Source of the DNA: an uncultured Bacteroidales bacterium
GTDB taxonomy: Bacteria > Bacteroidota > Bacteroidia > Bacteroidales > WCHB1-69
Direction: 5' to 3'
DNA length: 55,681 nt
Assembly (NCBI GenBank): GCA_946413585.1
Contig: CAMKLG010000015.1
Span: 1-55,681 of the forward strand
Numbering within the stretch: the first letter of the stretch is position 1; each line of letters starts with the position of its first letter. Both the position numbers and the translations under genes were made by a program. Positions 1,001 through 26,500 of the stretch are shown here, piece after piece. The notes beneath the pieces are model-generated. The model was not told the origin of the DNA. It ran no database searches and saw nothing but the letters and a program-made list of their open reading frames with translations.

Positions 1001-1834
1001 CTATTCCAGTATCTGTTTCAAAGCGACCCGAAATTCCGGCATTGGGCAACCCGCGTCGCGCTCCACAATCAGGGTCTTTAGCCCTGCAAAAGGCAGAACT
1101 TCTGTTTCTATATCGCTGAGAGAACGGTCGTTGCCGAAGTAGGCAGGGACAAAAGCCTTCCAAAAACGAATGGCGGCAGTCCTGTCCATGTGGAAGGTTT
1201 CCTTAACGAACTCCTCTTGGCTGAGATTGCAGGTAAGATACACCATCCCCACATCGAAAAGATGGTTGCCGTAGCAGAAATCGCCAAGATCGATGAAATA
1301 GCGGTCTTCACCCACAAAGATGGCATTCGAGAACTGGAGGTCGCCGTGGATGGCGGTGTCCTCGTCGGGAACACTCGCGATGAACCGGTGCAGTTTGTCC
1401 TTCTCTTCCGCAGTGAAAAACGGATTCGCTTCAAGCAAGTGGAAGTATCTGTTTTTCACATTCTCGAACTGATGGGTGTCGATATGGGTGGCGTGCAGTT
1501 GGCGACACATTTCCGCAAATTCAGCCGCGTATTTCCCTGCTAATTCCGGGTGGTCGCCCGTCGCCCGTGAATAGGACATCTTGTCCCTGATGCGATGAAA
1601 CAGGATGCCGTAGCGTCCGTCTTCGGTCACCACATACTCGCCCGGCTCGGGTGTCGGGATGCCTGCCTCATAAACCTTCCGGGCCAAGAGCAACTCGTCA
1701 AGCGGCTGTTGGATTTTGCCTGGAAAATAGAGTTTGAGCACCACATTCGGGTCTGACTTGTGGTTATAGCTCTCACCGTTAGCACCGCCGCCGGCAAGCA
1801 CATAATCGTCAATAGATATTTTTTTCGCTTCCAT
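1001..1834 (-). CDS. Aminoglycoside-phosphotransferase-like kinase (TIGR02172-like)
   Basis: The 277-residue product has the protein-kinase-like fold signature of the APH/choline kinase superfamily: a catalytic-loop motif HGDLQFSNAIF near residue 163 and a metal-binding IDLGDF motif about 20 residues later. The N-terminal GGGANGESY stretch acts as a nucleotide-binding loop. I chose the ATG at 1832-1834 (MEAKKISIDDY) over an upstream start because homology-like sequence begins there and a TATTTTTG promoter box lies about 40 bp upstream. It resembles the small phosphotransferase family first noted as a paralogous family in Fibrobacter; the physiological substrate is unknown. It is monocistronic by spacing (163 bp to the next gene). 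Confidence 0.75.
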   Translation of the reverse strand: MEAKKISIDDYVLAGGGANGESYNHKSDPNVVLKLYFPGKIQQPLDELLLARKVYEAGIPTPEPGEYVVTEDGRYGILFHRIRDKMSYSRATGDHPELAGKYAAEFAEMCRQLHATHIDTHQFENVKNRYFHLLEANPFFTAEEKDKLHRFIASVPDEDTAIHGDLQFSNAIFVGEDRYFIDLGDFCYGNHLFDVGMVYLTCNLSQEEFVKETFHMDRTAAIRFWKAFVPAYFGNDRSLSDIETEVLPFAGLKTLIVERDAGCPMPEFRVALKQILE

Positions 1835-1924
1835 AAACCTATTCCTCAATTTGTATATTGAAATTGCGGGGCAAAAATACAAATAATTTCACTTTGTGTG
1901 AAAATAAAAAATAAAAATCATCCT

Positions 1925-2005: not shown

Positions 2006-3055
2006 ATGAAGAAATTATATTCAATTTGGATAGTCGCCCTGATAATAATGGCTTTCTTCGGCTGCAACAAAGACAACGAAAAGCCATACACGGACGTGCC
2101 GCTTGTCATCCTCGACACCGACATCGGCTCATCAACTGACGACCTTTTTGCCCTTGAAATGCTCTACCGCTACGAGGAGCAGGGAAAATGCCGCCTACAG
2201 GGCGTAATAGTGAACCGCGAAGGGGAAGCAAACGCCCGCTTTGCCGACGTGATGGGCACCTATTTCGGTCATGACAGCATTCCCATTGGACTTGTCCGCA
2301 ACGGTGTCAAAAACCCTCCGATTTGGATTGACTACGCCCATGTGGCCGCCACGGAAGACAACAACGGACAGCCGATGTTTGCTTGCAGCATCAACGACTA
2401 CTCGCAGTTGCCCGACGGATGGCAGCTCTATCGCCGTCTGTTGGCTGCCCAACCCGATCATAGCGTGAGCATCGTTTCCACCGGATTTGTCACCTGTCTG
2501 GCGCAGCTGTTGCAATCTGCCCCCGACAGCTACTCACCACTCAACGGCGTGGAGCTTGTACGGCGCAAGGTGAAGTGCATTTACGTGATGGGGGGGGTGT
2601 TCGGCAATGCTGTGGAACCTGACTTCAACTTCGCCAAGAGCATCGAATTCGCCAAGATCTTCTTCCGCCTTTGGCCGCAGGAGGTCGATATGGTATTCTC
2701 GCCTATGGAGGTGGGGCAGGATGTTGAGTACACGCCCGAGCAGGTCATCGCCGACATCTCGTGGACCGATGCACATCCCATCAAGCAGGTCTATTTACAG
2801 TGCAACTGCAACACGGGCCAGCGAATGTGGGACGTGATGGCCGCTATCCATGCTGTGGAAGGGGACGGCCTATTCTCGCTTTCCGAGCGTGGCACGGTGC
2901 GACTTACCGACAACGCGGAGACCATCTTCACCCCCTCAGCCACCGGCAACTGCCGCTACCAATTGCCCGGTGATGCCGCATGGGCCGCCGCCATGCTGGA
3001 ACGTATTAGGACAGTTAATAAAATGAGAACAACAATAGGGAACAAACAATATTAA
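2006..3055 (+). CDS. Nucleoside-hydrolase-like lipoprotein
   Basis: The protein (349 residues) starts [20 protein letters not shown], a lipoprotein signal with lipobox FFGC, so it is probably anchored in the envelope. Right after it comes [17 protein letters not shown], the aspartate cluster of inosine-uridine-preferring nucleoside hydrolases (usually DTDPGxDD), followed by conserved GVIVN and [15 protein letters not shown] segments. The family cleaves the N-glycosidic bond of ribonucleosides. The cluster is slightly altered ([10 protein letters not shown] has two inserted residues), so the substrate is uncertain. I used the internal ATG at 2006 because upstream residues do not look like a signal peptide. 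The stop codon lies 2 bp before the transporter fusion gene, which indicates co-transcription. Confidence 0.8.
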
Positions 3056-3057
3056 CA

Positions 3058-5841
3058 ATGAAGAAAATGTTCTTGATATTTGCCGCCATCCTCACCATTT
3101 GCGGCTGTTTTTTGCTTACCGGCTGCTCCGGAATGAAGTGGAGCGTGTCTGACAGTTTTTACAACAACTTGATAGCGGAGGACCGCTACAGGATGATTCT
3201 CGACGGCTTGCAGGTGACACTCATCATCACGTTCTGCGCCGCCATATTAGGCACCTTGCTGGGTGGCTTAGTGTGCTGGATGCGTATGAGCCGTCGGTCC
3301 TGGTTACAGAAGGTGGCCAAGGTGTATGTTGACATCATGCGCGGCACGCCCGTACTGGTGTTGCTCATGCTGATGTACTATGTGGTGATGGCACCGCTGG
3401 AAGCTACGGGCATAGTGGTGGCAATAGTCACCTTTTCCATGAATATGGCGGCCTACGTCAGCGAAATGCTGCGCACCACCATACAAGGTATCGACCGCGG
3501 ACAGACAGAGGCTGGCCTCGCGTTAGGATACACGCGCCGGCAAACGTTCTTCAGAATAGTACTACCCCAGGTGGTCAAATCCGTGATGCCCGTCTATCAG
3601 GGCGAGGTGGTGAGCCTGCTGAAGGGCACCAGCATCGTGGGCTACATCGCCGTGGCCGACATGACCAGAGCCTCAGACCTTATCCGCTCGCGCACATTCG
3701 ATGCCTTTTTCCCCATTATCGTGACGGCCATCATCTATTTCCTTATGGCATGGCTCATTGGGCTGCTGCTAACCTCGTTGGTGCAACGTAAGGGCATGAA
3801 AGCCATCATAGCGGCGGTGGCACTGGCCATTGGCGGAACCGTATGCTACGTGCCATCGATGCTGGCTCCAAACAAGACCGACACAACGGTGACGGAGGTT
3901 CCGGAAGTATTCAAGGCTCTCTCTGGCAAGACTGTGGGGGTCATCATCGGCAGCATACAAGACATAGCCGTCACTGAACTGGCACCCGATGCCGACATAA
4001 AACGCTTGGCCACCTATTCCGATGTGCAGGCTGCCTTAGAAAACGACAAGGTGGATGTGATTGGCACCGAAAGCTTGTTGCTGACATTCAACAAGGAGGT
4101 AGCAGCCAAGGTGGATTCGGTGAACGCAGGTTTGGCACCTATTCCGATAGCTGCATGTTTTCGACTTGGCAATACCGAATTGCAGCAAGATTTCAACCAA
4201 TTCCTGAAAGAAATTCGTGACGACGGCACCTACCAAGATATCTTCAACCGTTGGACCAATGCCGATGACCCATCGGCCATCGGCATACCGCAGCAACGCG
4301 GAACCGGAAAGACCCTGTGTGTGGCCACTTTCCCGACCATGCCTCCGTTCAATTTCATCTGTTCGGGAAAACCGTCGGGCCTTGAGATAGATATTCTGAC
4401 GGAGTGGGCCAATAGGCGCAACTGGAAATTGGAATTCCTCGTAATGGACTTTGCCTCGCAGATTCCTGCTGTGCAGACAGGCAAAGCCGACATGGCCATG
4501 GGTGCCATCAGCATCACCGAGGAGCGGCAGAAACAGGTACTCTTCTCCGACGGCTACTACGAGTCGCATATCATGCTTGCCACACGTAAAGGGGAAATCG
4601 GCTTGCTCTCTGGCCCCTCAAAACCGTCTGGTCCCGGAAAAGACACGAAAAAATGGCCGTGGATCGTGGTCATCCTCGTTGTCGTCATCGGTAGCGGCAC
4701 ATGGCTCCTTATCCGCCGTAAACGCATCCTGCAAAAACGTTCCTCTCTTAACTCCCAACTTTCAACTCAACCATCGGATAGTCCCATTATCCGCATCACT
4801 CATCTGAAGAAAAAATATGAAAATCTTGATGTCCTGCGCGACATCAATGCCGACATACACCGCGGCGAGGTCATATCCATCATCGGTCCCTCAGGCACAG
4901 GCAAGAGCACGTTATTGCGGTGCCTGAACCTGCTGGAGCAACCCACCAGCGGCAGCATTGTCATCAATGGGGAGGAAATACTCACCAAAGGTTATCCTGT
5001 CAACATGATGCGTCAAAAGATGGGCATGGTGTTTCAGAATTTCAATCTTTTCGGACATAAGACCGTGCTGGAGAATGTCATGCTTGCCCCCTGCCAGTTG
5101 CGCCATGAAGATCCGGAAAAGGCACGCGAAGAAGGACTCGCGCTGCTTCGTAAAGTGGGACTGGTGGAAAAAGCCGACATCTATCCTGGAAGCCTCTCAG
5201 GCGGTCAAAAACAACGTGTGGCCATTGCCCGGTGCCTGGCCATGAAGCCCGACATCATCCTTTTCGACGAGCCCACGTCGGCTCTCGACCCCACAATGGT
5301 CGGCGAAGTGCTCAGCGTCATCCGCCAACTGGCCGACGAAGGCATGACCATGCTTATCGTCACCCACGAGATGAAGTTCGCTCACGACGTGAGTTCACGC
5401 ATCTTTTTCATGTACGACGGGTATATCCACGAGGACGGCACCCCGGAACAGATTTTCGAAAACCCCATCCACAGTGCCACAAAAGCTTTCGTCCAACGCA
5501 TCCGCAAGGAGGTGTTTGAGATCGGAGGTCCAGACTTCGACTTCCGGGGCATGCATTCTGACATCGGTGCCTTCTGCTATAAATACGGCATCCCCAAAAA
5601 GCAGGAAGCCGCGGAACAGCTGTGCGACAAGATGCTCGACGAAGTGATGGCGGCCTACCGTCCCATCACCGTCCGTATAACCCACAGCGAACTGTCAGGT
5701 GTCACGGCCTTGGACTTCATGGTGGAGAAGATGGAATCCACGCCTCTGAATGACGCGCAGCGCAACGAACTGAACGGGCTGTGCCAACAGGTAGTGGAAG
5801 AATCCACCAAGTTAGGCTTCCGTGTGAAACTGATTTTGTGA
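3058..5841 (+). CDS. One-chain polar-amino-acid ABC transporter: permease, permuted binding protein and ATPase
   Basis: A 927-residue fusion holds a whole PAAT-family importer. Residues 1-23 form a lipoprotein-like signal ending LLTGC. Residues about 40-250 are the permease, with the ATPase-docking loop [21 protein letters not shown]. After a further membrane segment (about 248-268) comes the C-terminal half of a type II solute-binding protein ([11 protein letters not shown] at 289, ending [13 protein letters not shown]). Its N-terminal half follows from 418 ([37 protein letters not shown]), so the binding protein is circularly permuted. A membrane segment (about 533-553) leads to the ATPase: Walker [10 protein letters not shown] (610), signature LSGGQKQR, Walker [15 protein letters not shown]-loop VTHE. 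Residues about 815-927 are an extra domain shared with the ATPase at 12812-13897. The substrate is inferred to be an amino acid. Confidence 0.9.
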
Positions 5842-5885
5842 CATGCCCACAAGCAGCTACTACAGAAAATAGGATTTTTTTGTAG

Positions 5886-5922
5886 TTTGATTTTCAACGA
5901 TTCATCATATTTATTATTTTTG
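5886..5922 (+). promoter_or_regulatory. Putative promoter of the partner-switching genes
   Basis: In the 104-bp gap after the transporter fusion, TATTTTTG (5915-5922) is a good -7 box. The best upstream element is TTTG at 5886-5889, with a long 25-bp spacer. This suggests the phosphatase, kinase and antagonist genes can be transcribed separately from the transporter. Confidence 0.45.
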
Positions 5923-5945
5923 CACTCTGAAACAGATGAGTATAT

Positions 5946-7823
5946 ATGAACAAACGTTCTTTTTCTAAAAGCCTGAGTTTGCGGATTATCGGTATCGTGT
6001 CGGCGATTTTTTTCGTGGCCATGGTAGTGATCGCTATTGTCTCGCACCAAATCATCGCTGACGAAGCGACACGTTCCACGCAGCACATCCTACACGGAAC
6101 CATCAGTGAATTGGAGAAGCCCCTGAACACGGTTGAAGTCACTACAAGAGCCGTGGCGGCATACATATCCACACTTCAAACACAGCCTAATGTACTTCAG
6201 GCCATTGCCAGTCGCACAGTGCAGGCCAGCGAACTGATAAACGGATTCGCCGTTTTCTTCGTTCTCCCCGATGGAAACGTTGACACGCTTAAGCCTGCCA
6301 TCTTCAGCTACTGCGACGACGAAGGCATCCAAGAATTCCATCCCGACCAACAACAACTACAACAATTAAGTGCATTCTGGAACCTAAAGCAACTCCAACA
6401 GACCAAAAAAGCCGCTTGGACTGCCCCTTACGAGCCGCTTGACTCCCGTTCCACACGAATTGTTTCGTACTGCTATCCTTTGGTGGACTCCAAGCTCAAC
6501 GTCTATGCTATCGTGATTTCCGACATGTTTATAGACCAAATTGAAAGCACTGTGGAGGCACTTCGCCCCTACGACAACTCCATCGCCACCCTTATTTTCA
6601 ACAAGGACAACATCATAGGCATCAAGAGTTCCGACTCAGACCTGATCAACCGATACCAACACAGTTTTTCAGGAAACAGTTCCTTCCAGGAAGTGGTGGA
6701 AGATCTCAAATCGAACAAAGACAGCCTGCACCGCCGCGTGGGAAAAGGGCGCGAGATAGCATTTGTGGTGTATGGTCCCCTGCACAACGGTTGGAAACTT
6801 AGCATCACCTGCCCTTACAAAGAGGTACTTCGCCGTTCCACGCAAATGCATATTGCCCTGCTGATTATCGGCATCTTCGGTTTGGCCATCATTTACTTTG
6901 TTTGCCGTCGCGTGATACGTCGCATGACGCGCCCCATCACCGAACTGTCGGTCTCCGCGCTGAACATGGCAAAAGGCAACTTCAAGGCGAAACTGCCCGA
7001 AATCACCAGTCAAGACGAGATGCTCCGTCTGCACGACAGCTTCATCTACATGCAGAACTCCATCGCAGACTACATCGAGCAATTGAAAAGCACCACTTCA
7101 GCCAACGAGCGTATGGAGTCAGAGCTCAATGTGGCCCGCAACATCCAGATGGGCATGTTGCGCACCGACTTTCCGCCGCAGCTTTGTGCACTGCTGACCC
7201 CGGCAAAGGAGGTGGGCGGCGACCTGTACGACTTCACCATCAAAGGTGACCAACTCTATTTCGCCATCGGCGATGTGTCCGGCAAAGGGGTTCCTGCTTC
7301 GCTGATGATGGCCATCACCCGTGCCGCACTCCGCTTCGTGGCAGGTCTCGGCCTCCCGATGAACGAGACACTGAGCCGTATCAACAACAGTGTCAGCGAC
7401 ACCAACAGCAACAACATGTTTGTCACTCTATTTGTCGGTCGCATCGACATGAAGACCCTCCATATGGATTTCTGCAACGCCGGCCACAACCCATTGGTCA
7501 TCCTGCCGCCCGACGGCGAACCGTATTTCCTCAAGGCCAAAGCGAACCTCGCCATCGGTCTGTTCGAGGATTTCACCTACGAAGCCGAAAGCCTCGATCT
7601 GAAGCCAGGCACTCGCATCATCGCTTACACCGACGGTGTCAACGAAGCCGAAAACACCGACATGGATCTTTATGGCAATGAGCGGATGATGGAAACAATC
7701 CGCCAAATGGACCGCAACATGGACGGGAACACCGCTGTGAATCTACTCTTTGATTCGGTGAAGAATTTCGCAAACGGCAACCCGCAAAATGACGATATCA
7801 CCATTATGAGTATTCTTGTCTAA
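5946..7823 (+). CDS. Membrane sensor SpoIIE/RsbU-type serine phosphatase
   Basis: A 625-residue protein with a transmembrane helix at about 12-34, an extracytoplasmic region of about 265 residues, a second helix at about 300-320 (MHIALLIIGIFGLAIIYFVC), a HAMP segment, a short coiled coil, and a PP2C-type phosphatase of the SpoIIE/RsbU family. The phosphatase motifs are intact: GGDLYDF near 424, GDVSGKGVPASL near 442, NAGHNP near 511, YTDGVNEAEN near 562 and NDDITIM at the end, which carry the metal-binding aspartates. In partner switching such an enzyme dephosphorylates the STAS antagonist in response to a signal. The kinase gene starts 24 bp downstream and the antagonist follows. The ligand of the outer domain is unknown; the flanking amino-acid transporters suggest nutrient sensing (inference). 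Confidence 0.92.
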   Translation: MNKRSFSKSLSLRIIGIVSAIFFVAMVVIAIVSHQIIADEATRSTQHILHGTISELEKPLNTVEVTTRAVAAYISTLQTQPNVLQAIASRTVQASELINGFAVFFVLPDGNVDTLKPAIFSYCDDEGIQEFHPDQQQLQQLSAFWNLKQLQQTKKAAWTAPYEPLDSRSTRIVSYCYPLVDSKLNVYAIVISDMFIDQIESTVEALRPYDNSIATLIFNKDNIIGIKSSDSDLINRYQHSFSGNSSFQEVVEDLKSNKDSLHRRVGKGREIAFVVYGPLHNGWKLSITCPYKEVLRRSTQMHIALLIIGIFGLAIIYFVCRRVIRRMTRPITELSVSALNMAKGNFKAKLPEITSQDEMLRLHDSFIYMQNSIADYIEQLKSTTSANERMESELNVARNIQMGMLRTDFPPQLCALLTPAKEVGGDLYDFTIKGDQLYFAIGDVSGKGVPASLMMAITRAALRFVAGLGLPMNETLSRINNSVSDTNSNNMFVTLFVGRIDMKTLHMDFCNAGHNPLVILPPDGEPYFLKAKANLAIGLFEDFTYEAESLDLKPGTRIIAYTDGVNEAENTDMDLYGNERMMETIRQMDRNMDGNTAVNLLFDSVKNFANGNPQNDDITIMSILV

Positions 7824-7847
7824 AACATTAATCAACTTCAAATATTT

Positions 7848-8267
7848 ATGAAAAAACGTTTCAACCCCATCAAGGACAAAAGCAGCGAGATTATCGAATT
7901 TGTCATGTCCTCCCCCGAGATTCCGGATGATGATGTCTTGAAATTCAAGCTCCGTCTTTCCATCGAGGAAGCCGTTGAAAATGTAGTGCGTTATGCCTAT
8001 GATGGCGGCATCGGCTGGTTAGAGACAAATATCGACTTCAATCAGGACACGCTGCTCCTCACCATCCAATTACGTGATGCAGGAGTGCCTTTCAATCCTC
8101 TGGAAAAAGAAGATCCTGACGTGACGCTCTCCGCAGAGGACCGCAACATTGGCGGACTCGGCATCTATTTATGCAAAAAGATGATGGACAACATCGAATA
8201 CCGTTATGAAGACGGCAACAATGTGCTCACCATGACCAAAAAAGTTCAAAGTAAATCAAACGAATAA
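7848..8267 (+). CDS. RsbW/SpoIIAB-type anti-sigma serine kinase
   Basis: The 139-residue protein is a stand-alone GHKL (HATPase_c) domain. The N box is visible as SIEEAVENVVRYAY, the G1 box as RDAGVPFNPL and the G2 box as GGLGIYLCKKMMD. This is the size and layout of anti-sigma kinases that either bind a sigma factor (or other partner) or phosphorylate a STAS antagonist. It sits between its presumed phosphatase (24 bp upstream) and antagonist (start 12 bp downstream). No alternative sigma factor gene is present in the window, so the target is unknown and could lie elsewhere or be something other than a sigma factor. Confidence 0.9.
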   Translation: MKKRFNPIKDKSSEIIEFVMSSPEIPDDDVLKFKLRLSIEEAVENVVRYAYDGGIGWLETNIDFNQDTLLLTIQLRDAGVPFNPLEKEDPDVTLSAEDRNIGGLGIYLCKKMMDNIEYRYEDGNNVLTMTKKVQSKSNE

Positions 8268-8279
8268 TTGATAATAATT

Positions 8280-8582
8280 ATGGATATCAAAATAAGCCAA
8301 CAAGAGAATAAAACAATGGTCGTGTTGAACGGACGAATCGATACCTCCAACGCCGATCAATTCCAACAAGATGTCGCCCCGTTGATGGAGGGCGAGAATC
8401 CAGACATTGACATTGACTGCACGGACATGTCATATACTTCTTCGCAAGGGCTTCGCATCTTCCTCATGCTGCAAAAAAGTGTCAAAGCACGTGGCGGCAA
8501 GATGGTGATGCGCAACATGAACCCGCAAGTGAAGGAGGTTTTCGACATCACCGGATTCTCGAACATCATCACGATTGTTTAG
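8280..8582 (+). CDS. STAS-domain anti-sigma factor antagonist (RsbV/SpoIIAA type)
   Basis: A 100-residue single STAS domain. The conserved phosphorylation loop reads SYTSSQGLRIF, with Ser55 as the predicted phospho-acceptor by alignment with the DS[ST]G motif of RsbV. The start is the ATG at 8280; an in-frame TTG at 8268 abuts the kinase stop codon but the fold begins at MDIKI. It completes a phosphatase-kinase-antagonist trio. The stop codon (8580-8582) is itself the first triplet of a heptanucleotide repeat array that fills the downstream spacer. Confidence 0.92.
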   Translation: MDIKISQQENKTMVVLNGRIDTSNADQFQQDVAPLMEGENPDIDIDCTDMSYTSSQGLRIFLMLQKSVKARGGKMVMRNMNPQVKEVFDITGFSNIITIV

Positions 8583-8701
8583 TGAATAGTGAATGGTGAA
8601 TGGTGATGCATACATTGATGATCAAGTCACAAATCACTAATCACTAATCACTAATCACCAATCACAAATCACAAGTCACCAATCACAAGTAACAAGTAAC
8701 C
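8580..8701 (+). repeat. Heptanucleotide arrays in inverted orientation
   Basis: Beginning with the stop codon of the STAS gene there are four 7-bp units of the type TAGTGAA (8580-8607). After a short gap comes a second array of eleven 7-bp units of the type TAATCAC (8623-8701). The second array is roughly the reverse complement of the first, so the spacer can fold back on itself. The array ends just before the diacylglycerol-kinase-like gene. Confidence 0.8.
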
Positions 8702-8711
8702 AGCGACGGCA

Positions 8712-9617
8712 ATGAAGTACATCTATATCATCAACGGTCGGGCGGACAAGCTGCCACAATACAAGGAGCTGTACGAGCAGTTGAAGCAGCACGCGCATCC
8801 CTACGACATCTATACCACCTTAGGGGTGGGAGACGCCACGCGATACGTGCGCGTCTATTGCGACCTGCACCCGCAGGAAAAGGTATGTTTCGTTGCCTGC
8901 GGCGGCCTCGGCATCATCAATGAGGTGGCCTCCGGCTTGGTCGGGTTTCAGGAAAAGCAAATGGCCATCATCGCCATCGGTGGCAAGACAGGGGACTTTC
9001 TGGTCAACTATCCCGGCCGCGACTTCCGGAGCGTGGAAGCCATGCTGGCAGGACAGGCAAGCCCCATCGATATCATACAGGTAAACGACAGCTACTGCGT
9101 CAACGTAGGAAACTTCGGTTTCAACTCGAAGGTGGCGTCGCGGGCAAACGAACTGATGGCGCAGGGATGTCCGGTCCACAAGGCTTTCACTCGCGGTGTG
9201 GTGAACGCACTGCTGACGGCTCGTTATAACCGCATCAAGGTGACAGTGGACGGCGAGCGCATCACCCGGGGCTTTATGGTGCTCTGCACCATCGCCAACG
9301 GTCAGCGCGTGGGCGGCGAGTTCAACTGTGCCCCCAATGCAAAGGTCGATGACGGCCTCATTGAGGTGTGCCTCTTCCACAGCATGAGCCTGTTGCGACT
9401 CCTGATGCTGATCCCTCTCTACCGCAAGGGCGAGCACATCGGCAGCAAACCGGGCAAGAACAGAGTCATCTACCGACAGGCCCGTGAGGTGAAGGTCAGC
9501 AGCAAGGATCTCATTGATGTTTATCTCGACGGCGAGCTTCTCATCGGTTCCCATTTCGAAGTCAAGATTCTGCCGGGAGCACTTCCGCTAAGGTTACCAC
9601 CGGTTAACGGTCAATAG
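8712..9617 (+). CDS. Diacylglycerol/lipid kinase family protein with altered nucleotide motif
   Basis: The 301-residue protein resembles the YegS/DgkB lipid kinase family: conserved NVGNFGFNSKVAS, CAPNAKVDDGLIEV and DVYLDGELL segments match the C-terminal lobe. However, the nucleotide-binding GGDGTLNE motif reads GGLGIINE, losing the aspartate, and the usual GTGNDFA reads GGKTGDFL. The enzyme may therefore be inactive, use another substrate, or serve a regulatory role. It lies 129 bp after the antagonist gene and 29 bp before the alarmone synthetase, on the same strand, so it belongs to the same gene block. Function is not assigned. Confidence 0.7.
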   Translation: MKYIYIINGRADKLPQYKELYEQLKQHAHPYDIYTTLGVGDATRYVRVYCDLHPQEKVCFVACGGLGIINEVASGLVGFQEKQMAIIAIGGKTGDFLVNYPGRDFRSVEAMLAGQASPIDIIQVNDSYCVNVGNFGFNSKVASRANELMAQGCPVHKAFTRGVVNALLTARYNRIKVTVDGERITRGFMVLCTIANGQRVGGEFNCAPNAKVDDGLIEVCLFHSMSLLRLLMLIPLYRKGEHIGSKPGKNRVIYRQAREVKVSSKDLIDVYLDGELLIGSHFEVKILPGALPLRLPPVNGQ

Positions 9618-9646
9618 TCAAGGTTCAATGTTAAAAGGTAAAGAAG

Positions 9647-10726
9647 ATGAAACTGGATATGCATTGTGAGATGATTCTCGACGACTATCGCGAGAAGCTC
9701 CCTCTTTTCGAAAAGATCCGTTCTGTCGCATTGGAGAGGATAGAGCAATGCCTCAACGAGAACAAGATAGTTGTGGCGAGCATCAACTCCCGCATCAAGA
9801 CCGAAGAGAGCCTTACCGGCAAGCTGGAGCTGAAGGGTTACAAATACCGCACATTGGATGATATCACCGACATCGTCGGCATCCGCGTTGTCACCTTCTT
9901 CAGCGACGAGGTAGACGTTATCTCCGCACTCGCCGAGCAGCTGTTCGAAATCGACTGGGAAAACACCGTTGATAAGCGCAAGATGATGGAAATAGACCGT
10001 TTCGGATATATGTCGCTACACTACATCTGCCGGTTGCCCCAAAAGCTCTGCAACGACCTTGCGATGCCAGAGCTCAACGAAGTGCGTTTCGAGCTCCAGA
10101 TGCGCAGTGTCCTGCAGCATGTGTGGGCCAACATGTACCACGACATGGGCTACAAGACCGATGTCGAGATTCCCCGCGAATACCAACGCAACATGAGTCG
10201 CCTGGCGGGGATGCTGGAGCTGGCCGACGAACAGTTCAGCAGCATCCGCAAGGATATCACCGAATACCGACGCAAAGTGCAATCGCTCGTGGCCAACGGC
10301 AACTTCGACGAGGTGCCCTTCAACGGCGACACCTTCCGCTCTTTCATCGTCCTCAACCCCTTCGAGCGACTCGTTGACAAGATGGCCGCCATCAACCAGG
10401 CCGAGGTTTACGAGGACAGTCTGATGCCCTACTACAACGTGCTTCGACTGTTAAACATGCAGACTATCGGCGATGTCGTTCGAATGAGGGATGACTACAG
10501 CGAAAGCGCCTATCAGCTGGCGCTTATGCAACTGGCCGGCACCGGGCTCGACATTCTGGCCAGTTCCGTGGCGTTGCAGAACCTTTGCATCGTCTATATC
10601 CTGAAGAAAGGCTACGGAGAGGCCGGCTTAGTGCAGATGTTTGCTGTGCTGTACGGCCAAAACGACTACAACATCCAACGCGCAAAACGCAATTTCGACC
10701 AAGCTAAACGTATCAACATAATATAG
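9647..10726 (+). CDS. Small alarmone synthetase (RelA/SpoT synthetase domain)
   Basis: The 359-residue protein carries a stand-alone (p)ppGpp synthetase domain in residues about 20-175 and a helical C-terminal half without TGS or ACT domains. Synthetase residues are present: SRIKTEES (Arg49, Lys51), DIVGIR (Asp75), GYMSLHY (Tyr121, His125) and ELQMRSVLQHVWA (Glu149, Gln151). Such enzymes transfer pyrophosphate from ATP to GTP/GDP, or in toxic members to ATP or tRNA. The hydrolase gene begins 5 bp after its stop, so they are translated as a pair. The C-terminal region (about 190-359) is not recognised and may be regulatory. Confidence 0.88.
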   Translation: MKLDMHCEMILDDYREKLPLFEKIRSVALERIEQCLNENKIVVASINSRIKTEESLTGKLELKGYKYRTLDDITDIVGIRVVTFFSDEVDVISALAEQLFEIDWENTVDKRKMMEIDRFGYMSLHYICRLPQKLCNDLAMPELNEVRFELQMRSVLQHVWANMYHDMGYKTDVEIPREYQRNMSRLAGMLELADEQFSSIRKDITEYRRKVQSLVANGNFDEVPFNGDTFRSFIVLNPFERLVDKMAAINQAEVYEDSLMPYYNVLRLLNMQTIGDVVRMRDDYSESAYQLALMQLAGTGLDILASSVALQNLCIVYILKKGYGEAGLVQMFAVLYGQNDYNIQRAKRNFDQAKRINII

Positions 10727-10731
10727 CCATT

Positions 10732-11313
10732 ATGGATAATTTTTTTGACACCGAGTTATTTGACCGAGCCGCGAAGTTTGCGATCAACGCTCATCACGGT
10801 ACGGAGCGTCGCGGAAAGAATTTTCCATACATCCTCCACCCTATGGAAGCGGCCAATATTGTGGCCACTATCACCACAGATCCCGAAATGCTGGCTGCCG
10901 CCATCCTTCACGACACCGTGGAGGACACGGAGGTGACCTTTGAACAAATTTGTGATGAATTCGGAGAACGAGTGGCCAATCTCGTACAACATGAGACATG
11001 CCCGCTTCCCAAAAAAGCGCCTTGGCACGACCGCAAACAGGCGCAAATCGACCTCCTCGCCGACTCCCCCTACGACAGCAAGGTGGTGGCCATGGGTGAC
11101 AAACTTTCCAACCTCCGCGCCATCGCCATGGACTACTGTATGATTGGCGACAAACTCTGGTCGCGCTTCAAAGCCCCGAATGGTAAATCGGATATTGCCT
11201 GGTATTACCGCCTTTTGGCAGACGCTCTGTCCGATTTGTCCGACACTTTCCCATATCAGGAGTTCGTCATGTTGCTGGACAAGACCTTCGGTTCTGACGA
11301 TAAATCATTATAA
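10732..11313 (+). CDS. Small alarmone hydrolase (MESH1-like HD domain)
   Basis: A 193-residue stand-alone HD-type (p)ppGpp hydrolase. Visible metal and catalytic residues are FPYILHP (His36), ILHDTVEDT (His60-Asp61, Glu64-Asp65) and MGDKLSNLR (Asp123), with the final WYYRLLADAL helix typical of small hydrolases. It would remove the 3' pyrophosphate from the alarmone made by the adjacent synthetase. The pair gives make-and-break control independent of the long Rel enzyme at 22021-24273. An alternative reading is a toxic synthetase with a hydrolase antitoxin, as known for FaRel-type systems. The next gene starts 17 bp downstream. Confidence 0.9.
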   Translation: MDNFFDTELFDRAAKFAINAHHGTERRGKNFPYILHPMEAANIVATITTDPEMLAAAILHDTVEDTEVTFEQICDEFGERVANLVQHETCPLPKKAPWHDRKQAQIDLLADSPYDSKVVAMGDKLSNLRAIAMDYCMIGDKLWSRFKAPNGKSDIAWYYRLLADALSDLSDTFPYQEFVMLLDKTFGSDDKSL

Positions 11314-11330
11314 TCCAAGGCTTTCGGAAT

Positions 11331-12815
11331 ATGAAACGGTTGCTGTTCTTTATATTCATAGCGCTTTGCCTATTCGCTTGCAACAACAGAGAGAAGTCCC
11401 AGTCAAAAGCAAACCAGGAAATCCTTTCGGAAAAGGATCTTCAAGGTAAAGTGGTGGTCACACTGACAGGCAGCAGTTTTGAAATCGACATGGCCGGACG
11501 CAGCGATTTCAAGATCGTGCGACAACCGACCATGTCCGATTGCATCGCATCGCTCCGACAAGGGCGCGTCGATGCCATCGTGTATGATGAAGTGTGTTTC
11601 TCCGACGAAATGCTTCGTGAAAACGGCATGAAGAAAGCGTTCCGGACAGAGAAAAGCTACCCATGCGCATTCGCCTGCACTAAATCGAACCTGGATTTGG
11701 TCAACAAATTCAATGAATTTCTGGCAAAGCTCAAATCATCAGGTGAATTGAATGAGATCACCCTAAGGTGGCAGAACTGCATTGACTATACACACCCCGA
11801 CATGCCCGAAGTCAACGACACCCTCACAGGAAAGCCTCTGGTTGTGGGCACCGCGTACACAACGGCACCCATAGCCTATATGATTTTAGACAAGTGGTAT
11901 GGATTGGAAATTGAAATACTGAATCGTTTCGGTGAATATATAGGCCGTCCCGTGAGATACCAACTGTACGATTTTGCCGCAGAGATACCAGCCTTGCAAT
12001 CAGGGCAAATCGACATAGCAGGAGGAGTTTTGTTCGTCACGGAAGAACGGAAAAAAGTGTTAGCCCTCACGGATGTCTATTACAACTGTTACGGGGCTTT
12101 TTTCGTCATGGACAAAGATGCTCAAACCAAGACGGGCGATCCCAAGTTGTCCGATATCAGAGGATCCGTCAGGAACAATTTGGTGGCAGAGAATCGCTGG
12201 GTGTTTTTGGCACGCGGCCTCAAAGTCACCTTGGAAATCACGCTGTTCTCCATGTTCTTCGGCAGCATATTTGGCCTTGGGCTGCTGAAGATGCGTCGTA
12301 GCCAACGTCCGTGGGTCAGAAAGATCGCCAATGCCTATTCTACCATACTGCGCGGCATCCCCATGGTCGTGCTGCTCATGATTCTGTTTTACATTGTGCT
12401 GATCGGTTTCAGCGGACTTGTGGTGGCTGTGGTGGCATTTTCGATGACCTTTGCCTCTTCGTTTGCCTCCACGATAGACAACGCGCTGAATGCGATTGGC
12501 GACCAGCAACAAGAGGCGGGAGAAGCCATGGGATTCACCCGCGCCCAGATTTTCCGCTATATCACCGGTCCGCAAGCCCTCAAGCGCGCCCTGCCCCAGT
12601 TCAAGAGCGAAGCCGTTTCGCTCATCAAAAACACCTCTGTGGTGGGTTATGTGGCCATCCAGGACCTCACGCGTGCCTGCGATATGATACGCGCACGCAC
12701 TTTCGAGGCTTTCTTCCCTCTCCTATTCATCACCCTCATCTATTTTCTGCTCGCCTGGCTTATAGGCATATTCTTGGATTTCATCTTTAAAATCGCCATA
12801 AAACATTTGTTATGA
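11331..12815 (+). CDS. Permuted solute-binding protein fused to PAAT permease
   Basis: The 494-residue protein begins with a lipoprotein signal (lipobox LFAC), then the C-terminal half of an amino-acid binding protein (LQGKVVVTLTGSSFE ... FLAKLKSSGELNEITLRWQ), then the N-terminal half (PLVVGTAYTTAP ... EIPALQSGQIDIAGGVLFVTEE ... VYYNCYG), and finally a PAAT permease from about residue 285, with the ATPase-contact loop QEAGEAMGFTRAQIFRYI. The binding protein is permuted in the same way as in 3058-5841, but here it precedes the permease and the ATPase is a separate gene. The binding motif TYPPFEF of the family is altered to YTTAPIAYM, so ligand binding may differ. The stop overlaps the ATPase start by ATGA. 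Confidence 0.88.
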   Translation: MKRLLFFIFIALCLFACNNREKSQSKANQEILSEKDLQGKVVVTLTGSSFEIDMAGRSDFKIVRQPTMSDCIASLRQGRVDAIVYDEVCFSDEMLRENGMKKAFRTEKSYPCAFACTKSNLDLVNKFNEFLAKLKSSGELNEITLRWQNCIDYTHPDMPEVNDTLTGKPLVVGTAYTTAPIAYMILDKWYGLEIEILNRFGEYIGRPVRYQLYDFAAEIPALQSGQIDIAGGVLFVTEERKKVLALTDVYYNCYGAFFVMDKDAQTKTGDPKLSDIRGSVRNNLVAENRWVFLARGLKVTLEITLFSMFFGSIFGLGLLKMRRSQRPWVRKIANAYSTILRGIPMVVLLMILFYIVLIGFSGLVVAVVAFSMTFASSFASTIDNALNAIGDQQQEAGEAMGFTRAQIFRYITGPQALKRALPQFKSEAVSLIKNTSVVGYVAIQDLTRACDMIRARTFEAFFPLLFITLIYFLLAWLIGIFLDFIFKIAIKHLL

Positions 12816-13897
12816 TCAGCATCAGACACCTTTTCAAAACATTCATCACCCCAGATGGCAACCTTCTTGAAGCGCTGAAAGATGTCAACTGCGAGATCCA
12901 CAAGGGCGAAGTGATAGGCATCATTGGCTCTTCAGGGTGCGGAAAAAGCACCTTGTTGCGCACTATCAACATGATGACCCTGCCCACCTCCGGCGAAATC
13001 CTGTTTGAGGGGAAAAACATCGCCGCCCAAGGTTATCCCATCAACAAACTGCGCCAACGGATGGGGATGGTGTTCCAAACTTTCAACTTGTTCGAGCATT
13101 TAAACGTATTAGGGAATATCACCCTTGCCCCGATGAAACTGAAAGGGATCAAACAGGAAGAGGCAGAAAAGGAAGCCATGCAGATTCTGCACAAAGTGGG
13201 AATGGACGATAAATGCACCGCCATGCCCGCCGAACTCTCCGGCGGACAGAAACAGCGCATTGCCATCGCCCGCTGTCTGGCCATGCATCCCGACATCATG
13301 CTCTTCGACGAGCCTTTGTCCGCCCTCGACCCCTCCATGGTGGGCGAGGTGCAGACCGTCATCCGGCAACTGGCACGTGAGGGGATGACCATGCTCATCG
13401 CCACTCACAAGCTCAAGTTCGCCCACGATGTCTGTTCTCGCATCATCTTCATGAACAAAGGGCAGATTCACGAGGAGGGCACTCCGAAAGAGATATTCGA
13501 AAACCCCACCCGCAGTGCCACCAAAGCCTTTGTACAGCAAATTTACAAGCTTTGGTTCACCATCGAAGGCCAGGATTTCGACATCGTGGAGATGCACTCG
13601 CAGATGCTGCAATTCTGCAACAAATACAACATCGTGCACATCATCGAGACGGCACAGCAAATCATCAACCTGATGGTGCTCATTGTGCTTGCCGACTACC
13701 GCCCCCTCACCGTTCGCCTCTCCTTCATTGAGCAATTTGAGAGAGTGTCGTTGGATTTCATGATCAAGGATCTCACCACATCCCCACTCGATAACAATGA
13801 GTTCACCCAAAGCGTTTTAGACGACATCCGCTCCCTCTCCAAGGAGATCATCGAAGAACCCACAAAAAAGGGATTCCGGGTGAAGGTGATGCTATAA
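12812..13897 (+). CDS. Amino-acid ABC transporter ATPase with C-terminal extension
   Basis: A 361-residue ATPase of the GlnQ/HisP type: Walker A GSSGCGKST near residue 36, Q-loop VFQTFNLF, signature [12 protein letters not shown], Walker B IMLFDEPLSALDP, H-loop IATHK. It is about 115 residues longer than usual; the extension (from about 245) matches the extension of the fused ATPase at 3058-5841, including shared DFDI, FCNKYNI, DYRPLTVR, LDFM and GFRVKVML blocks. The start overlaps the stop of the permease gene (ATGA), so translation is coupled. The gene ends 8 bp from the convergent acyltransferase. Confidence 0.92.
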   Translation: MISIRHLFKTFITPDGNLLEALKDVNCEIHKGEVIGIIGSSGCGKSTLLRTINMMTLPTSGEILFEGKNIAAQGYPINKLRQRMGMVFQTFNLFEHLNVLGNITLAPMKLKGIKQEEAEKEAMQILHKVGMDDKCTAMPAELSGGQKQRIAIARCLAMHPDIMLFDEPLSALDPSMVGEVQTVIRQLAREGMTMLIATHKLKFAHDVCSRIIFMNKGQIHEEGTPKEIFENPTRSATKAFVQQIYKLWFTIEGQDFDIVEMHSQMLQFCNKYNIVHIIETAQQIINLMVLIVLADYRPLTVRLSFIEQFERVSLDFMIKDLTTSPLDNNEFTQSVLDDIRSLSKEIIEEPTKKGFRVKVML

Positions 13898-22020: not shown

Positions 22021-24273
22021 TTAATTTACGTCGTATCCGATGCGTTCCACCGATTCCATCTGGTCTATTTGTCTGAGTTGCTCGATTAGGTTGTTCAGTG
22101 TTTTGACACTCTGGATGTATAGCATCAGCGTGCCTGTAAAGACATTGTTTTTGGACTCGATGTTTAAAGAGCGAATGTTCAAATCCATTTGAGAGGTCAC
22201 CACATCCACCATTTCCTTGATGATGCCCTTGCGGTCGAAGCCTTTGAGCTTGATTCCCGACAAGAAGGCGATGTTCTGGCCTTTGCGCCATTTGGTCTTG
22301 ATGATACGGTTGCCGAAGCGCGACATCTGCGAAATGGCGTTCGGGCAGCTGGTTTGGTGCACCACAATGCGGTTGTCCGACACTTGGAAGCCCACCACCG
22401 TATCGCCGGGAATCGGATTGCAACAATCGGCCAGCACATACTTGATCTGTTCGTAGTCGTCGTCCAAAAGGAATGCATTCGGGGTGACATTCATCTGCTC
22501 GTCAATCAGTTGGTTTAAAGGCTTGCTCTCGATTTCCTGCGTGACTTTCTGCTGGAAATCGGCCAGCTCTTTGGCGTTCTTCATACTGAGCATCTTCTCT
22601 ATCTTACCCTTTGTCAGCTTTTTGGAGACAATACTGTTCCAAAAAGCCTCATCACTCTTCTCCAAAGAGGCCTCCTTCACCTTACGCACATTCTCTTCGT
22701 TATATTCAACGTTCAGTTCGTCAAAATATTGTTTCAACAACAATTTACCCGTAGAGACCAAACTCTGTTGTTCGTTGCGGAAGAAATCCTTGATACTGCG
22801 GCGCGCCTTGGGAGTCTGCACAAACTCCAGCCATTCCGCCCTCGGGAACTGCTTCTTGGAAGTGATGATTTCCACCTGGTCGCCATTGCTAAGTGTCTTG
22901 TTGACAGGCGTGATATTGTAGTTGACCTTCGCACCGATGCAATGGTCTCCGAGATTGGTGTGCAGCGCATAGGCAAAATCCAGCACGGTGGAGCCCTGCG
23001 GCAGGGTCTTCATCTCGCCTTTCGGGGTGAAGACGTATATCTCCTTGAGTCCGAGGTTCAAACGCACTTCACTGAGGAAGTCGAGTGCATCGGCATCTTT
23101 GCTGTCAAGAATCTCACGGGTCTTGAGCAGCCAATTTTCAAGACGATGATTCAAATCGGTATCTTCCGTCTCTTCATCTTCCTTATATCTATAATGGGCA
23201 GCAAGACCTTTTTCCGCAATTTCATCCATTCGTTTGGAGCGGATTTGCACCTCCACCCACCTACCCTGCTTGCTCATGGCGGTCACGTGCAGCGACTGAT
23301 AACCATTGGGCTTCGGATGGGTCAGGAAGTTACGGTCGCGGGCCGGATTGGTTTGGTAAAGCTGGCAGATGATACGATAAATCTTCCAACAAATCCCGAA
23401 TTCTTCGTCTTGAGGACTGTCAAACACAAAACGGACGGCGAAAATGTCATAAACATCTTCAAAATTAATCTGCTTACGCAGCATCTTGTTGTAGATGGAG
23501 GAGACGGATTTCGTTCGACTGGTGATTTCCGCATGGATGCCGGCCTTCTCAAGTTCCGCTTGGATGGGCGCGATAAACTCGGGAATCATCGTGGAACGCT
23601 CTTTTTCCGAATCTTTCAACTTCTCTTTGATGGCGAAATATTCCGTCGGGTTGGTGTAGCGCATGGCGTAGTCCTCCAGTTCGCCCTTGATGGCGTAAAG
23701 TCCTAGTCTATGGGCAAACGGAACATAGAAATAAGAGGTTTCGGACGCGATTTTGAGCTGTTTTTCGGGCGGCATCGCATCCAAGGTGCGCATATTGTGC
23801 AGACGGTCGGCAAGCTTGATAAGAATCACCCGCACATCTTTCGACATGGAGAGGAAAATCTTCTTGAAATTCTCAGCCTGTAGGGAGATGTTCTGGTTAT
23901 CAACCACAAGGTCATCGATTTTGGTCAGTCCGTCGATGATGTTGGCCACCACGTCGCCGAAACGGTCACGCATATCATCCAAAGTGTAGTCGGTGTCTTC
24001 CACCACATCATGCAAGAGAGCACAGATCACGGAGGTGGCGCCGAGGTTCATCTCGGAGCAGCAAATCATGGCCACCGCGATGGGATGGTAGATGTAAGGT
24101 TCGCCGCTTTTCCGACGCACGCCGAAGTGCGCGTTGGTGGCCAGCACGAACGCCTTGCGGATCTGCTTGCGCTCCTCCGCCGTCGTGCGCGGATAAACCA
24201 CGTGCAGCAACTCGCTGTACTTCCGCACCACCGTCCGGTTCTCTAATTCTTCATTTGGAATATATACTTCCAT
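22021..24273 (-). CDS. rel: Bifunctional (p)ppGpp synthetase/hydrolase (long RSH)
   Basis: The 750-residue protein has full Rel/SpoT architecture: HD hydrolase domain with YIYHP and LLHDVVEDTD (His88-Asp89, Glu92-Asp93), synthetase domain with TSRTKSVSSIYNKML, YDIFAVRF, GYQSLHVT and VEVQIRSKRMDEIAEKG, a TGS domain (EIYVFTPKGEMKTLPQGST, around 400), a helical/zinc-finger-like region (ADCCNPIPGD), and a C-terminal ACT domain (IIKEMVDVVTSQMDLNIRSL). It makes and degrades the stringent-response alarmone, sensing uncharged tRNA on ribosomes. It is encoded far from the small synthetase/hydrolase pair at 9647-11313, so this genome has at least three alarmone genes. It appears monocistronic. Confidence 0.96.
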   Translation of the reverse strand: MEVYIPNEELENRTVVRKYSELLHVVYPRTTAEERKQIRKAFVLATNAHFGVRRKSGEPYIYHPIAVAMICCSEMNLGATSVICALLHDVVEDTDYTLDDMRDRFGDVVANIIDGLTKIDDLVVDNQNISLQAENFKKIFLSMSKDVRVILIKLADRLHNMRTLDAMPPEKQLKIASETSYFYVPFAHRLGLYAIKGELEDYAMRYTNPTEYFAIKEKLKDSEKERSTMIPEFIAPIQAELEKAGIHAEITSRTKSVSSIYNKMLRKQINFEDVYDIFAVRFVFDSPQDEEFGICWKIYRIICQLYQTNPARDRNFLTHPKPNGYQSLHVTAMSKQGRWVEVQIRSKRMDEIAEKGLAAHYRYKEDEETEDTDLNHRLENWLLKTREILDSKDADALDFLSEVRLNLGLKEIYVFTPKGEMKTLPQGSTVLDFAYALHTNLGDHCIGAKVNYNITPVNKTLSNGDQVEIITSKKQFPRAEWLEFVQTPKARRSIKDFFRNEQQSLVSTGKLLLKQYFDELNVEYNEENVRKVKEASLEKSDEAFWNSIVSKKLTKGKIEKMLSMKNAKELADFQQKVTQEIESKPLNQLIDEQMNVTPNAFLLDDDYEQIKYVLADCCNPIPGDTVVGFQVSDNRIVVHQTSCPNAISQMSRFGNRIIKTKWRKGQNIAFLSGIKLKGFDRKGIIKEMVDVVTSQMDLNIRSLNIESKNNVFTGTLMLYIQSVKTLNNLIEQLRQIDQMESVERIGYDVN

Positions 24274-26317: not shown

Positions 26318-26500
26318 TCATCGTCATTCATCGTCATTCATCGTACCATTCATCGTCATTCATCTTTTTTTTCATCGCATCATTCATCGTTCCATTCCCT
26401 AGGGCTCGCTGCGCTCACCCTAGGCTGACATAGGTCGGGCTTTCAGCCCTTTTTGGAATACATTTTAAACTATTGCCTATTGCCTATTGCCTATTGCCTA
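26318..26500. repeat. Composite intergenic repeats
   Basis: Three elements fill this spacer. First, a 10-bp tandem unit CATTCATCGT repeated about five times (26318-26370). Second, a palindromic element with arms CCTAGGG (26398-26404) and CCCTAGG (26418-26424), followed by hairpin GGGCT-ttc-AGCCC and a T run (26437-26454). Third, four 7-bp units CTATTGC (26470-26497) that run into the stop codon of the dnaX C-terminal reading frame. Confidence 0.7.

Follow-up and report, generated by a model that had tools for sequence, protein, structure and literature searches.

Composition of the locus

The window analysed here is a stretch of 55,681 nucleotides from an uncultured Bacteroidales bacterium (lineage WCHB1-69; contig CAMKLG010000015.1 of assembly GCA_946413585.1). 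Its subject is a cluster of ten co-directional plus-strand genes, g1 to g10, at positions 2006-13897, in which a predicted partner-switching module, a probable small alarmone synthetase with a candidate hydrolase, and amino-acid ATP-binding cassette (ABC) importers of the PAAT type stand side by side. A preliminary description made from the sequence alone had listed ten plus-strand genes with their families; all were found and Pfam agrees with the assignments, to which a family for the lipoprotein g1, unnamed there, is now added. The system also reaches left of position 2006 to c4, a divergent kinase gene that is a member new relative to that list. Kinases of the c4 type recur at other loci, beside or between the synthetase and the hydrolase. 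The features are as follows.

1004-1837, minus strand: c4, TIGR02172/APH-family kinase, divergent from the operon (TIGR02172 E=1.9e-64; PF01636 APH E=7.2e-16)
2006-3055, plus strand: g1, nucleoside-hydrolase-like lipoprotein (PF01156, IU_nuc_hydro, E=2e-14)
3058-5841, plus strand: g2, PAAT permease, two SBP_bac_3 stretches and ATPase in one 927-aa protein (Pfam)
5494-5838, plus strand: C-terminal extension of g2, almost certainly a degenerate RsbW/SpoIIAB-type domain (41% identity to the g10 extension; profile comparison)
5946-7823, plus strand: g3, membrane sensor phosphatase with an extracytoplasmic, weakly Cache-like region, HAMP and SpoIIE/PP2C (SpoIIE E=1.6e-46; HAMP 4.1e-8)
7848-8267, plus strand: g4, RsbW-like serine kinase/STAS-binding protein (HATPase_c_2 E=4.7e-20)
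8280-8582, plus strand: g5, STAS protein, RsbV/SpoIIAA-like, with a conserved SSxGL motif (STAS E=1.5e-18)
8712-9617, plus strand: g6, YegS/DAGK-type lipid kinase (PRK13054 E=2e-34, under the curated cut-off)
9647-10726, plus strand: g7, probable small alarmone synthetase with a SYNTH domain (residues 1-207) and a clade-specific helical C-terminal region (about 210-359) (RelA_SpoT, Pfam)
10732-11313, plus strand: g8, small alarmone hydrolase-type HD protein (HD_4 E=1.6e-17)
11331-12815, plus strand: g9, PAAT fusion of substrate-binding protein (SBP) and permease (SBP_bac_3 2.2e-23; BPD_transp_1 4.3e-19)
12812-13897, plus strand: g10, PAAT ABC ATPase with a C-terminal extension (ABC_tran 5.2e-38)
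13535-13894, plus strand: C-terminal extension of g10, almost certainly a degenerate RsbW/SpoIIAB-type (pseudo-kinase) domain

From g1 to g9 the successive intergenic gaps are 2, 104, 24, 12, 129, 29, 5 and 17 bp, and g9 and g10 overlap by 4 bp. The parts of a PAAT importer (SBP_bac_3, permease and ATPase) are all present by Pfam. Two further assignments lie under their thresholds, the TIGR02172 match of c4 slightly (217.6 bits, cut-off 228.2) and the dCache_1 match of g3 clearly (18.4 versus 45 bits). Genes of the g1 type also occur beside the PAAT fusion at two loci without g7 (L207, L209), and g1 probably belongs with that fusion and not with the alarmone core. The same window encodes a long Rel-type protein (765-aa frame; synthetase match at 23173-23520, minus strand), so the alarmone cluster adds to the classical enzyme and does not replace it.

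Families of the switch and of the alarmone enzymes

Judged by its three proteins, g3-g4-g5 is predicted to be a complete partner-switching module of the RsbU/RsbW/RsbV type. The PP2C motifs GGDL, GDVSGKG, TDG and DD, which we take to form the metal site in the g3 family, are conserved to at least 95% over 82 distinct phosphatase sequences. The g4-type kinase motifs EEaVxN, DxGxpF and GGLG are conserved over 91 distinct sequences, and SSxGL, presumably the phospho-site of g5 as in SpoIIAA and RsbV, is found in 90 of 92 distinct STAS sequences. The likeness to RsbU-RsbW-RsbV and SpoIIE-SpoIIAB-SpoIIAA therefore extends from the phosphatase, kinase and STAS families to their motifs, but here the module is accompanied by second-messenger enzymes and transporters, with no sigma factor seen nearby. 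Association of YegS with the switch is observed in two forms and would represent a lipid-kinase branch of it: a fusion of YegS to the RsbW-like kinase (434-441 aa; L103, L112, L130) and modules without g7 in which YegS lies beside STAS (L214, L215, L219, L220).

The g7 protein has a SYNTH domain with neither HD nor TGS domain in the same chain, as is characteristic of small alarmone synthetases, and many residues common to solved synthetases are invariant in its family alignment. It is a probable (p)ppGpp synthetase. Its SYNTH fold is closer to RelQ and RelP than to FaRel2 in a fold comparison whose matches span the synthetase domain and exclude the C-terminal region. The protein differs from RelQ and RelP in its score against the RelQ/YjbM equivalog NF053588 (57.5 bits, cut-off 320) and in that C-terminal region of about 150 residues, for which there is no Pfam match. 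None of 15 distant synthetases with the same catalytic domain clearly matches the region, and their loci show none of the cluster's neighbours. A second small synthetase in the same genome (L169, contig C59, from position 10711; 315-319 aa), 27% identical to g7, likewise has no match to the g7 C-terminal region and no cluster neighbours.

The neighbouring g8 matches solved small HD hydrolases (7qoe at 4e-24, 4yf1, 7qoc and MESH1), and its HD and ED motifs are conserved in 92 distinct sequences. It appears to be an HD-type, SpoT-like hydrolase domain standing alone, the arrangement of small alarmone hydrolases. At one locus, the sole case among the 115 compared below, synthetase and HD hydrolase occupy a single 565-aa frame (L048, 5265-6962, minus strand), which is either a true fusion or a sequencing effect. 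At 12 of the 115 the HD hydrolase is fused to the TIGR02172/APH-type kinase (469-608 aa; L077, L078, L090, L091, L093, L100, L101, L103, L111, L112, L122, L130).

Conservation of the cluster across Bacteroidales

Of the 104 genomes in the window's family, its own included, 36 have a clear g7 orthologue (at least 49% identity). Counting any match raises this to 39 of 104; the three genomes with weak matches only (G044, G049, G055) are left out of the 36. Weak additional matches occur in G000, G060 and G061, which belong to the 36. This patchy distribution is one feature that would suit a defence or abortive module resembling toxSAS systems, in which g7 would be toxic through pyrophosphorylation of tRNA or nucleotides, g8 would be the antitoxin and the switch the trigger. 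A synthetase beside a small hydrolase also resembles the pairing of FaRel with a hydrolase antitoxin in the available text of PMC11782079, and a PADLOC match to PDC-S33 (2.8e-14) runs across the g7 synthetase domain. We consider this explanation very unlikely.

Neighbourhoods were taken from the 35 other g7-positive genomes of the family and from a public genome collection, where the best 80 of 445 relatives were used; these are mostly metagenome-assembled genomes (MAGs) with Bacteroidales, Bacteroidia, Prevotellaceae or Paludibacteraceae in their titles, and many come from rumen. The resulting set of 115 loci leaves out the window itself. Some loci are shared by the two collections (for example L042/L074, L050/L094 and L090/L185); clustering at 98% leaves 108 of the 115. 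For de-replication g7 was clustered at 85% identity and loci with at least 5 kb on each side were kept, which gave 65. Open reading frames (ORFs) were called mechanically and some members hidden by antisense ORFs were missed; the same loci supplied the sequences for the members' hidden Markov models, which makes the absence of distant members less certain than their presence.

The preliminary description had suggested looking for a conserved gene order and had named scattered genes, together with a lack of interaction or co-expression, as the sign of an accidental grouping; comparison across Bacteroidales found the cluster conserved instead, its members staying together across reshuffled orders. 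Within 6 kb of g7 in the 65 loci, the kinase is found in 55, STAS in 54 and the PP2C phosphatase in 48, with all three in 46 and at least one in 57; the HD hydrolase is found in 54, the TIGR02172 kinase in 46, YegS in 6 and the SBP-permease in 5. Clustering at 70% leaves 26 loci, in which any partner-switch gene occurs in 21, all three in 15, HD in 21 and TIGR02172 in 16. The order runs phosphatase-kinase-STAS-synthetase-hydrolase at some loci and synthetase-hydrolase-phosphatase-kinase-STAS at others, and phosphatase and kinase share one ORF in 47 of the 115 loci. A set kept through reshuffled orders fits functional linkage rather than a frozen operon.

The STAS gene is the nearest recognised upstream gene of g7 in 53 of the 115 loci. 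The gap between them is -14 to +46 bp in 50 of these 53 and -14 to +15 bp in 45, and the junctions include six TAATG and six 4-bp stop/start overlaps. Within the family, STAS is present in all 36 g7-positive genomes compared with 27 of 67 g7-negative ones; for the close STAS type the counts are 24 of 36 and 4 of 67 (Fisher 7.6e-11, uncorrected for relatedness). Thirteen g7-positive genomes picked as a check, including cases in which the two genes are not adjacent, all have STAS; in four of them the unlinked STAS sits with PP2C and YegS (the modules L214, L215, L219 and L220 noted above).

The samples of the order and of the phylum were drawn automatically. In the rest of the order g7 was found in 9 of 393 genomes (E 1e-60). 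Seven loci come from four other families, and five of them hold the cluster (L184-L187, L190), their STAS being seen in L211, L213, L216, L218 and L221. The other two (L188, L189), from one genus, have PAAT, g7 and HD together, with STAS and the phosphatase-kinase elsewhere in the genome (L222, L223).

These results indicate that partner switch, synthetase and hydrolase genes almost certainly form one functional system. An accidental grouping would accommodate the eight of 65 loci in which g7 has none of the partner-switch genes within 6 kb, but not the conserved cluster with its stop/start overlaps, fusions and co-occurrence, nor the reappearance of this cluster in further families of the order, beyond the nearest relatives. 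Given the conserved cluster and the co-occurrence of STAS and g7 across genomes it was rejected, and we regard it as scarcely credible.

What the switch acts on is a separate question. Classical RsbV/RsbW outputs are sigma factors, and further RsbW-like and STAS genes lie elsewhere in the genome, so the target could be an unlinked sigma/anti-sigma factor or another regulator, with the alarmone genes as co-operonic downstream members of its regulon. The preliminary description had likewise offered a sigma/anti-sigma pair as an output. That part of its model found no support, as inspection by eye of the 14 neighbour clusters that recur most often within 5 kb of g7 (L074-L153) showed no sigma factor. 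STAS, moreover, stays next to g7 through rearrangements, with stop/start overlaps, and an unlinked target seems quite unlikely.

Several minor observations concern individual loci. In 11 of the 80 named loci a tyrosine-phosphatase-like protein, recognised by eye, is encoded no more than 5 kb from g7 (L091, L093, L106, L108, L115, L119, L126, L134, L145, L147, L151). Seven records carrying g7 are titled Akkermansia, Fibrobacter, Firmicutes or Lachnospiraceae (L091, L098, L100, L105, L109, L110, L111), which reflects either mislabelled MAGs or transfer outside Bacteroidales; two of these, L109 and L110, show HD and g7 alone.

Importer extensions and a model for the switch

The C-terminal extensions of the PAAT ATPases g2 and g10 would provide a link between transporter and switch. 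A profile of 59 extensions matches RsbW-like kinases with a probability of 94.3% (E 1e-7), and Pfam HATPase_c_2 reaches 1.8e-5 in one extension copy (L241), just below its cut-off. Earlier profile comparisons with 27 and 41 sequences failed (0.9% and 2.0% probability); the homology emerges only from structure and from the 59-sequence alignment, made in another MAFFT mode, after successive tries with growing sets. By fold and profile homology the extension is nonetheless an RsbW-type domain with very high probability. It appears degenerate, as no conserved N-box Asn, DxGxP or GLG is found in the 41-sequence consensus or the extension alignment, and hence no intact nucleotide-binding boxes. The preliminary description had proposed that transporter state feeds into the STAS phosphorylation level; the degenerate RsbW-type domains on the ATPases lend this some unexpected support, and the binding itself is a prediction.

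The extension occurs in 31 of 103 family genomes, all 31 of which have STAS compared with 63 of 103 overall (Fisher 5.5e-9, uncorrected for relatedness), and a STAS gene is found no farther than 6 kb from 29 of the 48 family copies. At ten loci that lack g7 (L191-L200), an ATPase with the extension stands beside PP2C, with kinase or STAS recognised in most and the SBP-permease in nine; the STAS positions for six of them come from a separate STAS search, as the ORF caller had hidden these genes. Neither this group nor the 18 extension loci from outside the family (L224-L241) was de-replicated. The ten loci represent a compact transporter-linked partner switch in its own right, without an alarmone gene.

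Such loci raise the alternative that the switch acts on transport, with STAS on the ATPase extension toggling amino-acid import and the synthetase and hydrolase merely co-expressed. The RsbW-type nature of the extension agrees with this, as does a precedent, since the available text of PMC7367683 reports that the STAS protein MlaB binds the ABC ATPase MlaF and that a phosphomimetic T52E change weakened the pull-down. Yet most g7 loci have the partner switch and no PAAT, and at many loci the end of the STAS gene runs into the start of g7 or directly adjoins it. An effect on transport alone is unlikely. The parallel with MlaFEDB lies in the regulation of an ABC ATPase by a STAS protein, shown there and proposed here; phosphorylation of MlaB is proposed in that paper, which in its available text reports no evidence yet for it, and the MlaF tail has about 25 residues (PMC7367683), whereas here a whole degenerate RsbW domain would be the presumed dock.

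We favour, with a probability of roughly one half (0.5), a model in which a STAS-centred switch determines how much alarmone a dedicated small synthetase makes and either senses or controls the amino-acid ABC importers. From their families and conserved motifs, g3 would dephosphorylate the STAS protein g5 and g4 would rephosphorylate it. Unphosphorylated STAS may then dock on RsbW-type folds, of which there are three here: g4, the g2 extension and the g10 extension. Binding of STAS to an ATPase extension, which we consider reasonably probable, would allow the importer to compete for the STAS pool or to be regulated by it. Free STAS may bind g7, most likely through its C-terminal region, and switch (p)ppGpp synthesis on, a step suggested by gene overlap, co-occurrence and analogy to SiaC-SiaD; control of g7 by STAS is slightly favoured. 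Only tentatively do we combine the two, such that the dead-RsbW importer domain competes with the kinase for one STAS and the free STAS gates the alarmone synthetase. The hydrolase g8, at some loci fused to the TIGR02172 kinase, may reset the alarmone signal, and YegS may be a lipid kinase with an auxiliary role, associated with the RsbW-like kinase. Uptake or an external signal would in this way feed into alarmone levels without passing through the long Rel of the same window. In this scheme we infer all binding steps, the sign of control, the g7 product and the roles of the TIGR02172 and YegS kinases.

A number of observations weigh against this model. Besides the eight loci without a nearby partner-switch gene, no STAS-synthetase fusion occurs among the 115 loci, in the window g6 stands between STAS and g7, and nearly all sequences come from MAGs. 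Distance correlations with g7 are alike for STAS (0.81), kinase (0.79) and PP2C (0.81), with a partial value of 0.22 for STAS, so that STAS is not singled out; these correlations are dominated by shared ancestry and serve as description only. For the importer arm, 19 of the 48 family extension copies are not within 6 kb of STAS, and 14 of the 18 extension loci from outside the family show no nearby partner-switch gene, some being cut by contig ends; clear ones lie near L224 and L226, and STAS-domain proteins farther off in L227 and L232. The domain may accordingly predate the link, be independent of it, or use an unlinked STAS. The PAAT SBP-permease is near g7 in only the five of 65 de-replicated loci, from few clades, and PAAT was therefore downgraded as a core part. 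The preliminary picture of transport, switch and alarmone turnover in one locus thus holds for the window and describes a rarer, clade-specific form rather than a rule. PAAT also occurs with g7 without a linked partner switch, at L050/L094 (TIGR02172 present, no HD match) and at L188 and L189 (HD present), L075 being taken as the same locus as L188; STAS lies elsewhere in the genomes concerned (G076, G596, G776).

Sigma factors are familiar targets of partner switches, and SiaABCD adds a c-di-GMP cyclase. In the Pseudomonas aeruginosa SiaABCD system a switch governs a second-messenger enzyme, as may also be the case here, and the available text of PMC8457831 describes SiaC as activating the diguanylate cyclase SiaD. 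The present cluster differs in having a RelA/SpoT-type synthetase with its own hydrolase in place of a GGDEF enzyme, and in the addition of importer ATPases with RsbW-type domains and of YegS and TIGR02172 kinases. The g3 protein scores 72 bits against the SiaA equivalog (cut-off 700) and there is no GGDEF Pfam match among the ten proteins. The system resembles SiaABCD in its presumed working and is not a member of it.

We know of no described partner switch that has an alarmone output or is built into ABC importers. No paper uniting these parts was found in searches of the open literature, and this argues only weakly that none exists, given the many subscription papers outside the search; papers that mention both partner switching and an alarmone synthetase deal, judging by title, with Mycobacterium and heat shock. 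For their eight Bacteroidia genomes, the available text of Atkinson et al. 2011 gives only Rel and RshB (PMC3153485). In gut and rumen bacteria the cluster places a partner switch beside a synthetase and a hydrolase that probably act on (p)ppGpp, and together with the ATPase extension suggests a new way of tying nutrient uptake to the starvation signal ppGpp. In such a scheme uptake, in place of stalled ribosomes, could drive the starvation signal. Should the tentative combined reading hold, (p)ppGpp levels would be set by amino-acid flux together with an external signal, independently of the ribosome. A likely function also emerges for a domain that lacks a Pfam family and is carried by PAAT ATPases of Bacteroidales. 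Elsewhere in the window, this Bacteroidales contig contains a match to the Acido-Lenti-1 RNA (26398-26450, plus strand; 41.7 bits, gathering threshold 37).

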